Notes under the pieces: model-generated | Databases searched by the model: none | The model's input: the letters and a program-made list of their open reading frames with translations, nothing else | Told to the model about the DNA's origin: nothing | From: a virus | IMG/VR virus record: IMGVR_UViG_3300030108_003905 | Coordinates: 21,750 to 44,831 of that record | Reading direction: 5' to 3' (one strand) | DNA length: 23,082 nt | Position numbers and translations under genes: made by a program | Part shown: in pieces, positions 7,023 to 12,324 of the stretch | Numbering within the stretch: position 1 is the first letter of the stretch | How the letters are laid out: the number at the start of each line of letters is the position of its first letter

Positions 7023-7319
7023 TTATTGTTTTTTGAATCGTATCTCTTGGTGTCGAAACACCATACCATTTTGTAATCGTACAGTCTTGCGTACTTTTCG
7101 TCGAGCGTATTTCATCGTTTTCAACATGGTTCTAAGTTCATTTCTTGTAGGTACGCTATACTTAGGAGCAATCGACTTGTTGTTGGTTTTCTGTGACAAA
7201 AGTGCATCTATAATTTCGCTGATGCTACGTTCTTCACCATCATCCATTAGTTGGTTGACTCTCTTGACGGCAAGTTTGGTTATTCCACCATTCCTTTTGT
7301 TGTTCCATGCTTTCGTCAT
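7023..7319 (-). CDS. Small basic protein, possible winged-helix DNA-binding protein
   Basis: A 98-residue strongly basic protein. 'RSISEIIDALLSQ' followed by 'VPTRNELRTMLKTMKYARR' has the helix-turn-helix plus wing spacing of small winged-helix proteins, and the C-terminus is Lys/Arg-rich. This is one of few basic proteins in an otherwise acidic array, so DNA binding is a reasonable inference. Starts at 7322 and 7319 are both possible; 7319 has better spacing from GAGG. It is the last gene before promoter A and could regulate it. Confidence 0.7.
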   Translation of the reverse strand: MTKAWNNKRNGGITKLAVKRVNQLMDDGEERSISEIIDALLSQKTNNKSIAPKYSVPTRNELRTMLKTMKYARRKVRKTVRLQNGMVFRHQEIRFKKQ

Positions 7320-7741
7320 CATTCCTCGCCCACCTGCTTGAAGAGTTTGCTCTTGTCGTATTCTTCAAACGGCTTGAGCACATCCTTGTGGTCTACTGCG
7401 CTGTATTCTGATTCGCTCGGCTGAGTGATTTCGTCAGGGGTGTCCCATTGGCTAACGGAGTTCTCTTCATCCTCAAGGTCAGTCAAGTCGATGCCCAAGT
7501 TGTGAGCATCGTTGTGTACAATCTGTGCTGACAAATCCCCTGCGACCGTAAGCCACTCCGCACCACAGTTGGTACAGAACAGGCGAACCTTGTCCACTCT
7601 TGAGAACGTGTCCTCGACTGTGAACTGCCATGTGTGTCCTTCTCTCATGCACTTCTTGAGGTCTGACATCAGTGTCAGTTTCTTTTCCAAGTCTCGTGCT
7701 TCTTGTGCTAATTCGTCAATGTGTTCGTCTATTGTTTTCAT
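7319..7741 (-). CDS. Hypothetical protein: coiled coil, zinc knuckle, acidic tail
   Basis: A 140-residue protein. Residues 1-30 form a heptad-like helix (IDELAQEARDLEKKL), then C31, H36 and CTNC at 56-59 suggest a zinc site between strands, and residues 85-140 are acidic and probably disordered. The domain order resembles the gene at 3821-4177, so the two may be distant paralogues. It overlaps its upstream neighbour by ATGA. Confidence 0.75.
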   Translation of the reverse strand: MKTIDEHIDELAQEARDLEKKLTLMSDLKKCMREGHTWQFTVEDTFSRVDKVRLFCTNCGAEWLTVAGDLSAQIVHNDAHNLGIDLTDLEDEENSVSQWDTPDEITQPSESEYSAVDHKDVLKPFEEYDKSKLFKQVGEE

Positions 7742-8079
7742 TCTTCCTCATCCTCGTAGTAACCTATCATGTCTCTCAAGCAATCAGTGGCATGTTGTAT
7801 GTCACGAATGTAGTAGTTGTCCATGCTGTCAATCATGTCCACAATCTGTTCACGCAACCGCTTGACTTCTTCAAGAAGAAGTGGTGCGTCTGCCATGAGT
7901 CGTGCGTCTGCTATACAATTCTCGTCATAGTGGATTTCAGCAAGGTTTTCTTCGGTATCATCACTGTCGGATTCCATATATGGCTGATGATATAGGCGTA
8001 TGCTATTTGAGATGCCTCCATCATCATAATAAAACCACGGCCCTTCTGTGTGTCCTTTGTATTTGTCTGTGTTAATCAT
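7738..8079 (-). CDS. GPW/LIADAPLLL-family phage protein, header + core paralogue 1
   Basis: A 113-residue member of the local tandem family. It has the N-terminal header MINTDKYKGHTEGPW, a variable acidic middle, and the core 'ARLMADAPLLLEEVKRLRE'. 'GPW...NARLIA.AP.LL' proteins are common in tailed viruses (Ea22/Ead-like proteins share this pattern) and have no firm biochemical function. The C-terminus is acidic (YYEDEEE). The core DNA (7852-7905) is nearly identical to that of its neighbours. This is the most downstream member of the array. Confidence 0.78.
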   Translation of the reverse strand: MINTDKYKGHTEGPWFYYDDGGISNSIRLYHQPYMESDSDDTEENLAEIHYDENCIADARLMADAPLLLEEVKRLREQIVDMIDSMDNYYIRDIQHATDCLRDMIGYYEDEEE

Positions 8080-8393
8080 TCAATCACTCCCATTTCTCTC
8101 ATTATCCTACAGAACTCTAATGATTCCATGTCTAAATCTAAGTAAGCCTTGATGGTTTCACGCAACCGCTTGATTTCTGCAAGCAGTAGTGGTGCGTCGG
8201 CTATGAGTAATCTGTCTTTCTCACCATCACCGTCAAGCCCTATCATAGCAAGCATGACATTACTACCTTGTTGCATCACTGCACCTTGCAGTTCTCGGTT
8301 TTGAAATCTCTCAATCATTTCATCGGAGGGTATGTATTCTCCCTCTTCCCACGGTCCCGGTGTATGTCCTTCGTATTCGTCTGTGTCAATCAT
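8076..8393 (-). CDS. GPW/LIADAPLLL-family phage protein, header + core paralogue 2
   Basis: A 105-residue paralogue with the full header MIDTDEYEGHTPGPW and the core LLIADAPLLLAEIKRLRE. The middle is variable (EMIERFQNRELQGAVMQQG) and the C-terminus (ESLEFCRIMREMGVIE) is unrelated to the other copies. GGAG about 10 nt before the ATG lies inside the end of the previous gene, and the stop overlaps the next start as TGATTGAATGATT. Function unknown. Confidence 0.78.
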   Translation of the reverse strand: MIDTDEYEGHTPGPWEEGEYIPSDEMIERFQNRELQGAVMQQGSNVMLAMIGLDGDGEKDRLLIADAPLLLAEIKRLRETIKAYLDLDMESLEFCRIMREMGVIE

Positions 8394-8546
8394 TCAATCA
8401 TCTCCTAACCATTCATGATGCACTTCAGGATGATGTTCGCTCAACCAAGCCATCAATCCTTCGTGTGTGTAGTGAGTTTCAACCAAGTCCTCGACCGTCA
8501 AACAATTTACTTTGAGCCATTCCTCGTATTTGTCTGTGTCAATCAT
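8394..8546 (-). CDS. Header-only member of the MIDTDKYE family (50 aa)
   Basis: A complete 50-residue frame, MIDTDKYEEWLKVNCLTVED..., ending HHEWLGDD. It carries the same N-terminal header as its neighbours, identical at DNA level, but neither the GPW motif nor the LIADAPLLL core. The body is an unrelated His/Glu-rich helical segment. The stop is immediately followed by the ATG of the next paralogue. It shows the header can front different bodies. Confidence 0.72.
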   Translation of the reverse strand: MIDTDKYEEWLKVNCLTVEDLVETHYTHEGLMAWLSEHHPEVHHEWLGDD

Positions 8547-8911
8547 TCTACTTCCACCTTCCATTCACTATGCTCATCATCGTCTGTCTTCACCACAACA
8601 CGATGCCCGTTCTCAAGCATCCACGCTTCACAGTGGTCAAAACAACAGTCCTCTCTATATTCATAGAAGGCTTGTACAATTTGTTCTTCAATGTGCAGTG
8701 CCTTACGCAACCGCTTGACTTCTGCAAGCAGTAGTGGTGCGTCTGCTATGAGTCTTGTTGTAGCGAAGAACAGTTTGTCCGAATCACGATAGAATGTTTG
8801 TGCAATCGTGCCGTAGTCCTGTGCATGGATAGCGCACTCATCACCTGTATCGTTTTGTTCAATTACCCATTCGCCTTCTGCGTGTCCTTCGTATTTGTCT
8901 GTGTCAATCAT
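8543..8911 (-). CDS. GPW/LIADAPLLL-family phage protein, header + core paralogue 3
   Basis: A 122-residue paralogue. The header is MIDTDKYEGHAEGEW (GEW instead of GPW), the middle contains 'CAIHAQDYGTIAQTFY', and the core is 'TRLIADAPLLLAEVKRLRK'. The C-terminal third is unique, with CCFDHC and 'WMLENGHRVVVKTDDDE', possibly a metal site. Overlaps of ATGA type join it to both neighbours. Confidence 0.78.
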   Translation of the reverse strand: MIDTDKYEGHAEGEWVIEQNDTGDECAIHAQDYGTIAQTFYRDSDKLFFATTRLIADAPLLLAEVKRLRKALHIEEQIVQAFYEYREDCCFDHCEAWMLENGHRVVVKTDDDEHSEWKVEVE

Positions 8912-9186
8912 TCAATCATCTCCTTCGATGGTGGGTATTTCTCAATGTCTACTTTGTCATCGCAAAACCATTCATTGTATCGTCTGTCCCATTCTTCATC
9001 ACGGCGTTTTCGTGTTGAATATACATACTCGTCATCACTAAAGCCATAGTGCGAATTAGCATCAGCACAAACTTCTTCAACTGTTACTGTTGTCTTTTCC
9101 ATCTTACCTGTGTCGAACGATGACTTGAAGCCAAAGCACAATAGGTTTCCATGTTCGTCATATTCGTATTCGTCTGTGTCAATCAT
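8908..9186 (-). CDS. Header-only member of the MIDTDEYE family (92 aa)
   Basis: Shares only the start MIDTDEYE with the array; the remaining about 84 residues (HGNLLCFGFKSSFDTGKMEK..., RKRRDEEWDRRYNEWF) are not related to the core-containing copies. The acidic/aromatic body is not recognised. Its end (PSKEMIE, DNA GGAGATGATTGAATGA) provides the standard junction for the next gene. Second case of the header attached to a different body. Confidence 0.75.
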   Translation of the reverse strand: MIDTDEYEYDEHGNLLCFGFKSSFDTGKMEKTTVTVEEVCADANSHYGFSDDEYVYSTRKRRDEEWDRRYNEWFCDDKVDIEKYPPSKEMIE

Positions 9187-9512
9187 TCAATCACTTCTTT
9201 CAATTCATCAATAAACATTTTGAAGAGAGGCTTGCCTACTTGGTCTTCTGTCCATTCTTGCATTTCCCCAATGATGTCCCGTATGCCTTTACGCAACCGC
9301 TTCACTTCTTCAAGGAGGAGTGGTGCGTCGGCTATGAGGTTCAAATCCGCATCGGGAAACATTTCATCGCACGCTTGGTCATCAACAAGTGCTATGACAA
9401 CTTTATCTTTCCATACAGAACCGTATTCATGAAACTCGGTCTTCTCATCTGTATCTGCTTGCCCACGCCACGGCGCAGGTGTGTGTCCTTCGTATTTGTC
9501 TATGTCAATCAT
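9183..9512 (-). CDS. GPW/LIADAPLLL-family phage protein, header + core paralogue 4
   Basis: A 109-residue paralogue with header MIDIDKYEGHTPAPW (T to I at residue 4, APW for GPW), a variable middle 'VIALVDDQACDEMFPDAD', the core 'LNLIADAPLLLEEVKRLRK', and a unique helical C-terminus ending KEVIE. The spacing between header and core matches paralogues 1 to 3. Overlaps of ATGA type on both sides. Confidence 0.78.
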   Translation of the reverse strand: MIDIDKYEGHTPAPWRGQADTDEKTEFHEYGSVWKDKVVIALVDDQACDEMFPDADLNLIADAPLLLEEVKRLRKGIRDIIGEMQEWTEDQVGKPLFKMFIDELKEVIE

Positions 9513-9739
9513 TCTTCTTCCTCTCCCATGTATTCCTTGAACAGTTTGTAGTATTCGTTGCGACCCGCTTCACCGAGTCCATCCCACACGGACTGAATGA
9601 AATCACGCAACCGCTTGTATGCTTCAAGGAGAAGTGGTGCGTCTTTCAGTAGCGCATAAGTAGCCCTGTGTTGTTCAATCGTTTCAGCCACTTCTTTCAA
9701 ATCCGATAAGTGTCCTTCGTATTTGTCTGTGTCAATCAT
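9509..9739 (-). CDS. Short header + core paralogue 5 (76 aa)
   Basis: The header MIDTDKYEGH is followed directly by a short helical linker (LSDLKEVAETIEQHRATY), then a diverged core 'LLKDAPLLLEAYKRLRD', with no GPW motif. The C-terminal helix (YYKLFKEYMGEEEE) is acidic. This copy looks like an internally shortened version of the family. ATGA overlap with both neighbours. Confidence 0.76.
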   Translation of the reverse strand: MIDTDKYEGHLSDLKEVAETIEQHRATYALLKDAPLLLEAYKRLRDFIQSVWDGLGEAGRNEYYKLFKEYMGEEEE

Positions 9740-9930
9740 TCTTCTTCATCTCCTTCCATGTAGTCCTCATAGTCCATCAGCATTGAATCGCTGTGCTGAC
9801 AAATGGTGTGCACATACTTGTTGGCCTTCGCAAGTTGCTTTCGCAACCGCTTGACTTCTTCTCGTTCCCTTTGTAATTTTTCATTGAAGTCTTTGATTAT
9901 GTCTCCACTCCAAATTGTCTCTTTAGTCAT
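9736..9930 (-). CDS. Core-tail-only member (EEVKRLRK) of the paralogue array (64 aa)
   Basis: Begins MTKETIWSGDIIKDF and contains 'REREEVKRLRKQLAKANKYV', matching the KRLR tail of the core at DNA level (TCGCAACCGCTTGACTTCTT on the plus strand) but without header or LIADAP. Predicted coiled coil. The start at 9930 follows GGAGGAATCAGAATG, a leader shared with the gene at 12100-12324, which also carries EVKRLR. A TTG start seven codons earlier lies before the Shine-Dalgarno sequence and is not used. Confidence 0.75.
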   Translation of the reverse strand: MTKETIWSGDIIKDFNEKLQREREEVKRLRKQLAKANKYVHTICQHSDSMLMDYEDYMEGDEEE

Positions 9931-11906
9931 TCTGATTCCTCCATTGTCCAACCGTTCTGTTGCTTCAATCGCTTGACCAATTCCTTGACCAAACTTTGTC
10001 GCTCTTGCACGTCACCGCCATCGAGCACTGCTCGGACGACTTCACGCTTGGCTTCGACAACCCTGTCGAAGTGTTCGTCGATGCTGTTCACAACGGATAG
10101 GTAAACAGCGCTGACGCTTTGACTCTCCTGACCAATGCGATACACACGGTCTTCGGCCTGTTCTTCATCGGTTGGCACCCATTCTCGTTCGAGGAAGAGA
10201 ACAGTGTCAGCCGCAGTGAGTGTGATACCTTCTTTCGCAGCCATAGTGTTACAGACGAGCACGTCAATCTCACCGGCTTGGAAGGCTTCGACTCGCAACT
10301 GTCGCTCGTTGCTGTTGACATCACCACTGATGGTGGACACAGTGTAGTTCTTACCCATGCCATCGACGATGCCTTTGAGCACGTCACGGTGATGGGTGAA
10401 GACAACCAGTTGCTTGTCGGTCTGTTCCAAGTATTGCTTTATCCAATCAACGGCAAACGGAACTTTGATGCGACCACAGATGTGACGCAGTTCGTTCAGC
10501 ATGTTGAGCATGTAGCCTTTGGGCAATGGCTCATCACGAGCAGCGTGTGAGTCAATGACCTGCCAGTGTTCTTCTTGGGCCAAGTCGTACTCCTCACGCT
10601 CAGTCTTAGTGAGTTCCACTGGGATGAACTGACGAACCTTGTCAGGCAACTCAGTGAGTACCTCAGACTTGAGCCTGCGAATACACAGGTCTCGTGTTCG
10701 TTCATTCAATTCCTTGATGTTGCTCGCACCAGTGAAGTCCCACCCGAAGCCGTTGTGCCACGGGTCACAGTAGCGTTGCTTGTAGTCCCACTCAGAAGGG
10801 AACTGTTGCGGACGCAGTGTGTTCAGTGAGTTGAAGAACTCCGATGGTCGGCTTGAGATAGCCGTACCACTGAGTGCAATGACTTTGTTGATTGAGCGAG
10901 CCAAGTCAATCGTCGCTTCGGTTCGCTTGGCCTTCTTGTTCTTGAGATAGTGAACCTCGTCGATGACCATTATCTTCGCCCACAGTGATTGCAGCGCTTG
11001 ACTTTGTTTGCCAACAAGGTCGTAGTTGATGATGACAATGTTGGTGTCCTCGATGGCTTGCTTGCCAGTGTTGACAACGGACACAGTCTCGTCAGGCATC
11101 CAGCGTTTGACTTCCTTGAGCCAGTTGTACTTGACGTTGGATGGTGCGACGATAATCATGGGTCGTTGGGTTGGATGAAGCGCAGCGTATGCAATCGCTT
11201 GGATGGTCTTACCAATCCCCATCTCGTCACCAATCAGACAACGTCCGTCGCTCGCCTCAGCGAACGCAACGCCAACCTCTTGGAATGGATAGAGTTCAAG
11301 ACCGTCGGGCAACGCCTCCTTGAGTCGTCGTCGCAAGTCGTCGGCATCAACCTCCTTGAGTTCAGTTGCACCACTCATCTCGACACGTTCGATGCTGTCC
11401 TCAATCTCCTGTTGGATTTGTGGACAGTCGATGATTGCCTGAGCCAGTGGTTTGTAAATGTCCTCCAACAATCCGTGCAGTGTTCTCGCCTGTCCGATTG
11501 GGATAGTCCAACACTTCTTGTCGGGATTGAATCGTCTGCCTGAGATGGCACGCACCGTCAGTCGCACTGAGTCTCGCAAGCCCTCGTCAGGAATATACGG
11601 CCAGTGCAATTCCAACTGACCACCATTCACTTCCACCCACACATCACTGGGCGAGCGCACATCAGCATCACCCACCAAAGCATACAGGGCAGAGCAATCA
11701 TACCCATGCCCTACCAGCACTTCACACGCCTTGATGATAGTGCCTCTTGCTTGCTGCACTGACCATGCCTTCTTATCCCCTTCCCACTTCACTTGGGGGA
11801 AAGGCAAAGCACTCTTGAGTGCATCCTTCGCATCAGCATTGTACGCAAAGCGCAACGCAACGCGTGCACCAAACCTATCACTGTATTGCTCAACCTCAAC
11901 TTTCAT
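9927..11906 (-). CDS. SNF2-family helicase/ATPase (SMARCAL1/HepA-like)
   Basis: A 659-residue superfamily 2 ATPase with a complete set of SNF2 motifs: Q-like FQ (208-209), Walker A GDEMGIGKT (226-234), DEVH box (316-319), motif III-like LSGTAI (345-350), and the C-terminal RecA lobe with motif VI QAEDRVYRIGQ (583-593). The N-terminal 200 residues contain two short segments ending in 'KKAWSVQ' (45-51) and 'KKCWTIPI' (130-137), reminiscent of HARP repeats in SMARCAL1-type annealing helicases. Viral relatives are thought to remodel DNA at replication or recombination intermediates. It overlaps both neighbours by ATGA. Family assignment is firm; the specific role is inferred. Confidence 0.93.
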   Translation of the reverse strand: MKVEVEQYSDRFGARVALRFAYNADAKDALKSALPFPQVKWEGDKKAWSVQQARGTIIKACEVLVGHGYDCSALYALVGDADVRSPSDVWVEVNGGQLELHWPYIPDEGLRDSVRLTVRAISGRRFNPDKKCWTIPIGQARTLHGLLEDIYKPLAQAIIDCPQIQQEIEDSIERVEMSGATELKEVDADDLRRRLKEALPDGLELYPFQEVGVAFAEASDGRCLIGDEMGIGKTIQAIAYAALHPTQRPMIIVAPSNVKYNWLKEVKRWMPDETVSVVNTGKQAIEDTNIVIINYDLVGKQSQALQSLWAKIMVIDEVHYLKNKKAKRTEATIDLARSINKVIALSGTAISSRPSEFFNSLNTLRPQQFPSEWDYKQRYCDPWHNGFGWDFTGASNIKELNERTRDLCIRRLKSEVLTELPDKVRQFIPVELTKTEREEYDLAQEEHWQVIDSHAARDEPLPKGYMLNMLNELRHICGRIKVPFAVDWIKQYLEQTDKQLVVFTHHRDVLKGIVDGMGKNYTVSTISGDVNSNERQLRVEAFQAGEIDVLVCNTMAAKEGITLTAADTVLFLEREWVPTDEEQAEDRVYRIGQESQSVSAVYLSVVNSIDEHFDRVVEAKREVVRAVLDGGDVQERQSLVKELVKRLKQQNGWTMEESE

Positions 11907-12103
11907 TCAATCAACTCGTATCTCCTCGTCTCTTCATTGTAGCGGATGAAACCATACACCAACATCAAGTGCCTCACATCTTTACCGAATGCTTGATTGC
12001 ATTGATTGGGCTTGCTCCATTCTTCGACTATCTTGTCTCGGAACTCACGCAGTTGCTTGAGTTCTTTCTGTGCTACTCGTAGTGCTATCATTGTTCCACT
12101 CAT
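11903..12103 (-). CDS. Hypothetical protein upstream of helicase (66 aa)
   Basis: Begins MSGTMIALRVAQKELKQLREFRD; helical N-terminal half, then 'VRHLMLVYGFIRYNEETRRYEL', which could be a small wing-like hairpin. Not recognised. GGGAG lies about 9 nt before the ATG at 12103, inside the end of the previous gene. It is coupled to the helicase by ATGA and may act with it. Confidence 0.75.
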   Translation of the reverse strand: MSGTMIALRVAQKELKQLREFRDKIVEEWSKPNQCNQAFGKDVRHLMLVYGFIRYNEETRRYELIE

Positions 12104-12324
12104 TCAATCACTCCCTTCATTGATTCCCATGTTTTCATGTCTTCCCACACTTCGTCGGGAATACTGTCAGCGATGTAGCGTAGTCGCTTGACTTCCGTTA
12201 TGTGTTTGACGCAATCTTGTTTCAGCGAGCGACAGTAAAGTATCAAGTCGTTGATGTCGCTACTGCCACAAAGTTCAATCATTTCTTCTTCGATTATTCC
12301 GTCCTCTTCCCAACCAAGACTCAT
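12100..12324 (-). CDS. Hypothetical protein with EVKRLR segment (74 aa)
   Basis: Begins MSLGWEEDGIIEEEMIELCG and contains 'HITEVKRLRYIADSIPDE', matching the tail of the core of the paralogue array 2.5 kb downstream both in protein and at DNA level (CGCTTGACTTC on the plus strand). It lacks the header and LIADAPLLL. The start at 12324 uses the GGAGGAATCAGAATG leader also found at 9930. Probably a displaced member of the same family. Confidence 0.75.
   Translation of the reverse strand: MSLGWEEDGIIEEEMIELCGSSDINDLILYCRSLKQDCVKHITEVKRLRYIADSIPDEVWEDMKTWESMKGVIE

Follow-up and report, generated by a model that had tools for sequence, protein, structure and literature searches.

Front and tail modules of small genes are swapped at conserved coding joints in an array of a magrovirus-like virus

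The stretch of viral DNA examined here (the window, 23,082 nucleotides) corresponds to bases 21750-44831 of IMGVR_UViG_3300030108_003905, a 44.8 kb record of an uncultured virus in IMG/VR, and carries an array of small genes whose front and tail modules are swapped between related viruses at two short coding sequences, a header and a core. Eight small overlapping genes sit between a SNF2-type helicase gene (11906-9927, minus strand), which adjoins the array, and a gene ending at 7319; two outlying genes with related joints lie upstream of the helicase, and array genes and outlying genes alike are encoded on the minus strand. The 27-nucleotide (nt) header, ATGATTGACACAGACAAATACGAAGGA, opens seven tandem genes with 0-4 mismatches to its consensus. 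Numbered from the helicase side, the header-bearing genes are gene 1 (9509-9739, header copy at 9713-9739), gene 2 (9183-9512, header 9486-9512), gene 3 (8908-9186, header 9160-9186), gene 4 (8543-8911, header 8885-8911), gene 5 (8394-8546, header 8520-8546), gene 6 (8076-8393, header 8367-8393) and gene 7 (7738-8079, header 8053-8079). Five of them also contain the 42-nt core, GCAGACGCACCACTTCTCCTTGCAGAAGTCAAGCGGTTGCGT (ADAPLLL.EVKRLR), which ends in KRLR and differs from its consensus at 2-6 positions: gene 7 at 7852-7893, gene 6 at 8160-8201, gene 4 at 8705-8746, gene 2 at 9291-9332 and gene 1, with a YKRLR variant, at 9605-9646. Genes 3 and 5 have the header on unrelated bodies and lack the core.

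The first gene of the array (9930-9736) has no header and retains the last 18 nt of the core (9841-9858, 1 mismatch), while the outlying genes 12324-12100 and 12103-11903 carry the joint alone, as KRLR at 12178-12195 and as a KQLR version at 12047-12064 (18 nt and 4 mismatches each). An original prediction, made from the DNA of the window alone, had correctly described the seven consecutive headed genes and the two headers on unrelated bodies; it gave the right coordinates for the five core genes but assigned the cores to the plus strand, and it found both KRLR-only genes but overlooked the KQLR gene. The pattern is real and extends further than it described. The two headerless KRLR genes, starting at 12324 and 9930, share the start junction GGAGGAATCAGAATGA, and the genes preceding them end in EESE; the array may thus have another conserved kind of junction.

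The cassettes follow a common order: the start codon and header lead into a front module, which is followed by the core or the KRLR joint, then by a tail module and a C-terminus that encodes a Shine-Dalgarno (SD) sequence. Purine-rich, SD-like bases precede the header (GGAGATGATTGA, AGAGGTGATTGA, AGGTGAAGAAGA), and therefore many array proteins end in -VIE or -EEE; in most genes the codons of the conserved C-terminal endings -(E)VIE and -EEE also provide the following gene with its ribosome-binding site. A GAATGA ending is present in 160 collected genes, the stop codon overlapping the next start (ATGA). Together, the SD-like bases and the ATGA overlap mean that each cassette brings its own start and header and supplies its successor with a ribosome-binding site. 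Repetition of the header in the array is not due to chance, because a scan of the 44.8 kb record allowing up to 3 mismatches returned seven copies, all inside the array and on a single strand, against none for a reversed control pattern at the same threshold.

To collect relatives, we used codon-degenerate header and core patterns, in which the amino acids are fixed and silent sites are free. In IMG/VR contigs these patterns matched 61 stretches for the header and 47 for the core, and more than 200 array-type genes were collected from about 60 uncultured virus contigs. For about 190 genes with the header and 115 with the core, silent sites were compared against long open reading frames (ORFs) of the same contigs, and the predicted conservation of silent positions is borne out in both sets. 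Header codons 2-9 are nearly fixed (ATT in 185/186, GAC 166/182, ACA 174/174, GAC 175/181, AAA 157/165, TAC 154/164, GAA 140/148 and GGA 126/133), whereas the same codons have a usage of 0.2-0.6 in the long ORFs, with ATT, ACA and GGA at 0.2-0.4; by codon 10, a histidine, usage is back at background (CAC 75, CAT 52). The silent sites of ADAP...EVKRLR in the core are similarly locked, with GTC at 0.96 versus 0.22 and CGG at 0.76 versus 0.05 in long ORFs, and codon usage returns to background 1-2 codons past the core. Headerless KRLR-only genes bear the same 18-nt joint. Header variants differ as much within a contig (0.629 differences per 27 nt) as between contigs (0.623; p 0.55), as would be expected of one common pool rather than of lineage-specific versions.

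When the collected genes were split at the core, 223 front modules fell into 162 clusters and 197 tails into 137 clusters. The 182 pairs of array genes that share a module do so by the front only (81), the tail only (97) or both (4), so that 178 of 182 have a single module in common. Other small ORFs from these loci, cut in half, served as a control and were subjected to the same direct comparison as the array genes: both halves were shared in 305 of 592 matching control pairs versus 4 of 157 for array genes. Across the core, nucleotide identity falls from about 0.9 to 0.25-0.3 in pairs with one common module, and in header genes taken at random it falls from about 0.9 within the header to 0.3 by codon 12. 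Inside the arrays, 157 of 262 ends of homology blocks lie at matching headers or cores, compared with about 10% for shifted positions. These results support the recombination at header and core that had been proposed; similarity breaks abruptly at the edges of both joints rather than extending over full-length members of a single diverged family.

Individual genes of the window illustrate the exchange. The tails of genes 7, 6 and 4 recur behind other fronts in loci L096 and L058, L018 and L057, and L014 and L058, respectively, and that of gene 1 recurs behind another front in L027, while relatives of the gene 1 front module bear other tails in L014 and L058. The header-to-core block of gene 2 is 89% identical in L096. 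Among the outlying genes, the tail of 12103-11903 recurs inside the arrays of L008, L042 and L049, and L018:9153-9287 consists of the front of 12103-11903 and the tail of 12324-12100, joined at KRLR. The flank of L015, the closest relative, is about 95% identical to the window over 2.3 kb including the helicase, and its array measures 0.7 kb as against 2.1 kb. Here the front half of gene 9930-9736 is common to both loci and the tail is swapped right after GAAGTCAAGCGGTTGCG; identity ends at the last bases of KRLR (the left synteny breakpoint, at 9841-9858) and picks up again at the last array gene's stop/start junction. About ten pairs of loci with flanks 85-98% identical differ in their arrays, and close relatives have almost no whole array gene in common; the array is thus not fixed among relatives.

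The stretch from GH(T)xGPW to ADAPLLL in the header-and-core proteins matches phrog_1273 as one domain, from GPW to the core, with E-values of 2e-10 for gene 7, 4e-8 for gene 2, 0.0075 for gene 4 and 0.3 for gene 6; the profile gave no match in the remaining array genes, header-only and KRLR-only genes included. Core-type proteins are thus known in tailed viruses, as had been stated. Because the header-and-core genes match this single family, their front modules are probably very diverged homologues and not all unrelated. The original prediction that bodies and C-termini differ completely is refined by the shared family of these fronts and by the conserved -(E)VIE and -EEE endings. Searches of the array proteins against Pfam returned nothing above the curated cut-off. 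An AlphaFold model of one header-and-core protein is confident in the C-terminal half only (helices 63-90 and 94-108) and places the core at the start of a long helix, a predicted position that would let different tails join without breaking the fold; a Foldseek search with this model returned no match at E<=0.001. Given their small size, tandem coupling and fast turnover, we propose that the array proteins may act in host interaction. In L027 and L028, header-only genes carry the header on small zinc-ribbon-like bodies (CPKCDE...CPTCD).

The gene content of the carrier contigs fits the published description of magroviruses (PMC10768690; PMC12999244), which are tailed viruses attributed to marine Poseidoniales archaea. 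A TCP-1/cpn60 chaperonin (PF00118) is encoded in 47 of 50 carrier contigs tested, the window's own record included, and is of thermosome type in the one that was checked (PDB match, E 6e-98); the text of the International Committee on Taxonomy of Viruses names the magrovirus chaperonin GroEL (PMC10768690). In G038, G039 and G048 the chaperonin match falls in two pieces in separate frames, and the gene is possibly broken or frameshifted. Many carrier contigs are 85-118 kb long, compared with magrovirus genomes of 90-110 kb. A close relative, G001 (a near-complete contig of 103 kb), encodes a family B DNA polymerase, whose nearest annotated relatives are those of haloarchaeal tailed viruses, and a clamp loader, and it has PHROG matches to terminase, portal and head maturation protease; these three matches come from this relative rather than from the 44.8 kb record. 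The same contig contains a single open reading frame of 5307 codons, about 16 kb in length (L097:3953-19876). The header has no copy in annotated or cultured phage records, comparison of array proteins with cultured phages gave a single weak match (E 0.3), and no named magrovirus is among the matches listed in the phage collection. Among 84,980 prokaryote genomes the degenerate patterns occurred in one contig, L096, labelled as a Maricaulis metagenome-assembled genome and carrying 4 header copies, which is probably a misbinned virus contig; its array modules match those of the window at 89-92%. The assignment of the window virus as a magrovirus-like tailed archaeal virus is thus strong by gene content, though not a formal classification.

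The helicase is 98% identical in amino acids in L015 and 62-68% in L016-L019, and arrays lie downstream of it in the window and L015 and upstream in L016, L017 and L018. Many non-array genes of the window share a start region of stereotyped form that differs from the array header, with the leader GGAGGAAT(A/G)AA(C/T)ATG; it is found at the minus-strand starts 19453, 18801, 17273, 16842, 16005, 13769, 13053, 12850, 4177, 3122 and 2816.

We consider it likely that, in magrovirus-like viruses, the array serves as a hot spot of gene assembly, where modules are exchanged by homology-directed recombination at short coding joints. Header, core and junction are near-identical within and between viruses and would thereby offer substrates for such recombination, by strand annealing or crossover during co-infection and replication. 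The machinery might comprise a viral exonuclease and helicase together with a putative annealing protein; 17 of 18 contigs encode a PD-(D/E)XK exonuclease, and the position of the SNF2 helicase next to arrays in the window and in L015-L018 counts in favor of this proposal. Exchange at the header or junction would transfer whole cassettes, while exchange at the core would transfer front and tail modules, every exchange being in frame and preserving translation coupling. The joints may stay alike because only matching joints go on recombining, and the benefit to the virus would be a changing set of small host-interaction proteins.

Several points weigh against this interpretation. Short-homology recombination as the agent is inferred from comparison of sequences, and searches of the tested contigs turned up no member of the RecA, RecT or Rad52 families. 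Relatedness among the viruses makes the breakpoint and pair counts non-independent, and the loci were fetched by way of the header or core, which favors arrays rich in joints. In addition, the ratio of nonsynonymous to synonymous differences (N/S) in header and core is 0.17-0.41, like that of ordinary coding DNA, a value that is biased by the amino-acid filter and compatible with homogenisation as well as with selection at the nucleotide level.

The conservation of both joints at the nucleotide level, with sharp edges despite their location within coding sequence, would also be expected if header and core were recognition sites of a putative viral recombinase or nuclease, which would cut cassettes and join them in a manner comparable to integron cassette insertion. 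The single orientation of all header copies within each genome and the clustering of breakpoints at the joints are likewise consistent with such a site-specific process. Tyrosine integrases (PF00589) are, however, absent from 16 contigs, some of which are fragments, serine recombinases (PF00239) from the contigs tested and reverse transcriptases (PF00078) from 18 contigs; header and core have no evident common motif, and the breakpoints are scattered along the length of the joint rather than located at one position. A hairpin or attC-like site at the core was rejected as a candidate: its consensus folds (about -15 kcal/mol), but it shows 0 compensatory changes and a pairing score no better than that of shuffled sequences. 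On this evidence we regard a site-specific recombinase as unlikely. A broader proposal, that magroviruses possess a dedicated diversification system in which unrecognised virus-encoded machinery acts on header and core to assemble new two-module proteins combinatorially, as a viral counterpart of cassette assembly that needs neither integrase nor reverse transcriptase, appears doubtful.

Selection on nucleotide sequence for expression provides a different account, in which the header is a translation-initiation element, the core a codon-level or RNA element and the mosaic the outcome of ordinary gene gain and loss. The header does follow an SD sequence and overlap the stop/start junction, the start region is less structured than synonymous controls (-3.5 versus -7.1 kcal/mol), and start-associated repeats are known in mycobacteriophages (PMC3203893). 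This account nevertheless leaves unexplained the locked silent sites of a core in mid-gene and the fact that the boundaries of shared front and tail modules fall at the core, and the core hairpin lacks covariation; as a general explanation we judge it to be quite improbable, although at the header expression selection could act in addition to recombination. That the array is one old paralogous family evolving rapidly by point mutation under selection, with header and core as conserved protein motifs, is highly improbable despite the single-domain match to phrog_1273, since silent sites are conserved as well, near-identical tails stand behind unrelated fronts and vice versa, and header and KRLR also occur separately on unrelated bodies, zinc-ribbon-like ones among them.

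The array amounts to a naturally occurring library of two-module proteins whose joints are known. It would also allow recombination in uncultured archaeal viruses to be measured from reads and, in viruses of archaea that are abundant in the ocean, is a candidate locus of an arms race.

Several known systems resemble parts of this organization. A diversity-generating retroelement was considered and rejected on the absence of reverse transcriptase from 18 contigs, as was an invertible shufflon on the absence of both recombinase families from the contigs tested and the uniform orientation of header copies within each genome. Integron cassette arrays, like the array, string together exchangeable small genes by means of short conserved DNA, but no integrase was found in the contigs tested, the array has no supported folded site, and its joints lie within coding sequence. 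In lambdoid phages, conserved boundary sequences at gene junctions have been proposed as foci of recombination; these mark the borders of genes, whereas the core divides genes internally. The header-and-core class belongs to phrog_1273, which the header-only and KRLR-only genes do not match. Cluster K mycobacteriophages carry start-associated sequences and their extended forms (SAS and ESAS), a conserved repeat just upstream of the start codon (PMC3203893). Like the header, SAS is a short conserved repeat that marks where many different small genes start and that almost always points the same way; the header, in contrast, starts with the start codon itself and extends into the gene, and the array has a second repeat in mid-gene. 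No SAS-type repeat was found directly upstream of the start codon in the array, where strong conservation begins at the ATG and upstream bases show only an SD-like bias.

The promoter early stem-loops (PeSLs) of T4-type phages, and similar motifs in the haloarchaeal virus HGTV-1, are described in a further paper (PMC3950731), which cites Arbiol et al. 2010 and Sencilo et al. 2013. As described there, they resemble the array in being short repeated DNA between small accessory genes of tailed viruses, tied to shuffling in variable regions, and HGTV-1 is, like the window virus, an archaeal tailed virus. PeSLs and the HGTV-1 motif are promoter or stem-loop elements before genes, by which whole genes are shuffled; the joints of the array, by comparison, are protein-coding, at the gene start and in mid-gene, have no supported stem-loop, and allow protein halves to be exchanged in frame. 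The literature searched does not describe in-frame swapping of protein halves at a joint conserved at silent sites, as seen in about 60 virus contigs. The shuffling of whole genes at short repeats is thus already known in viruses from PeSLs and SAS, while the in-frame exchange of half-proteins is, as far as that literature shows, new.

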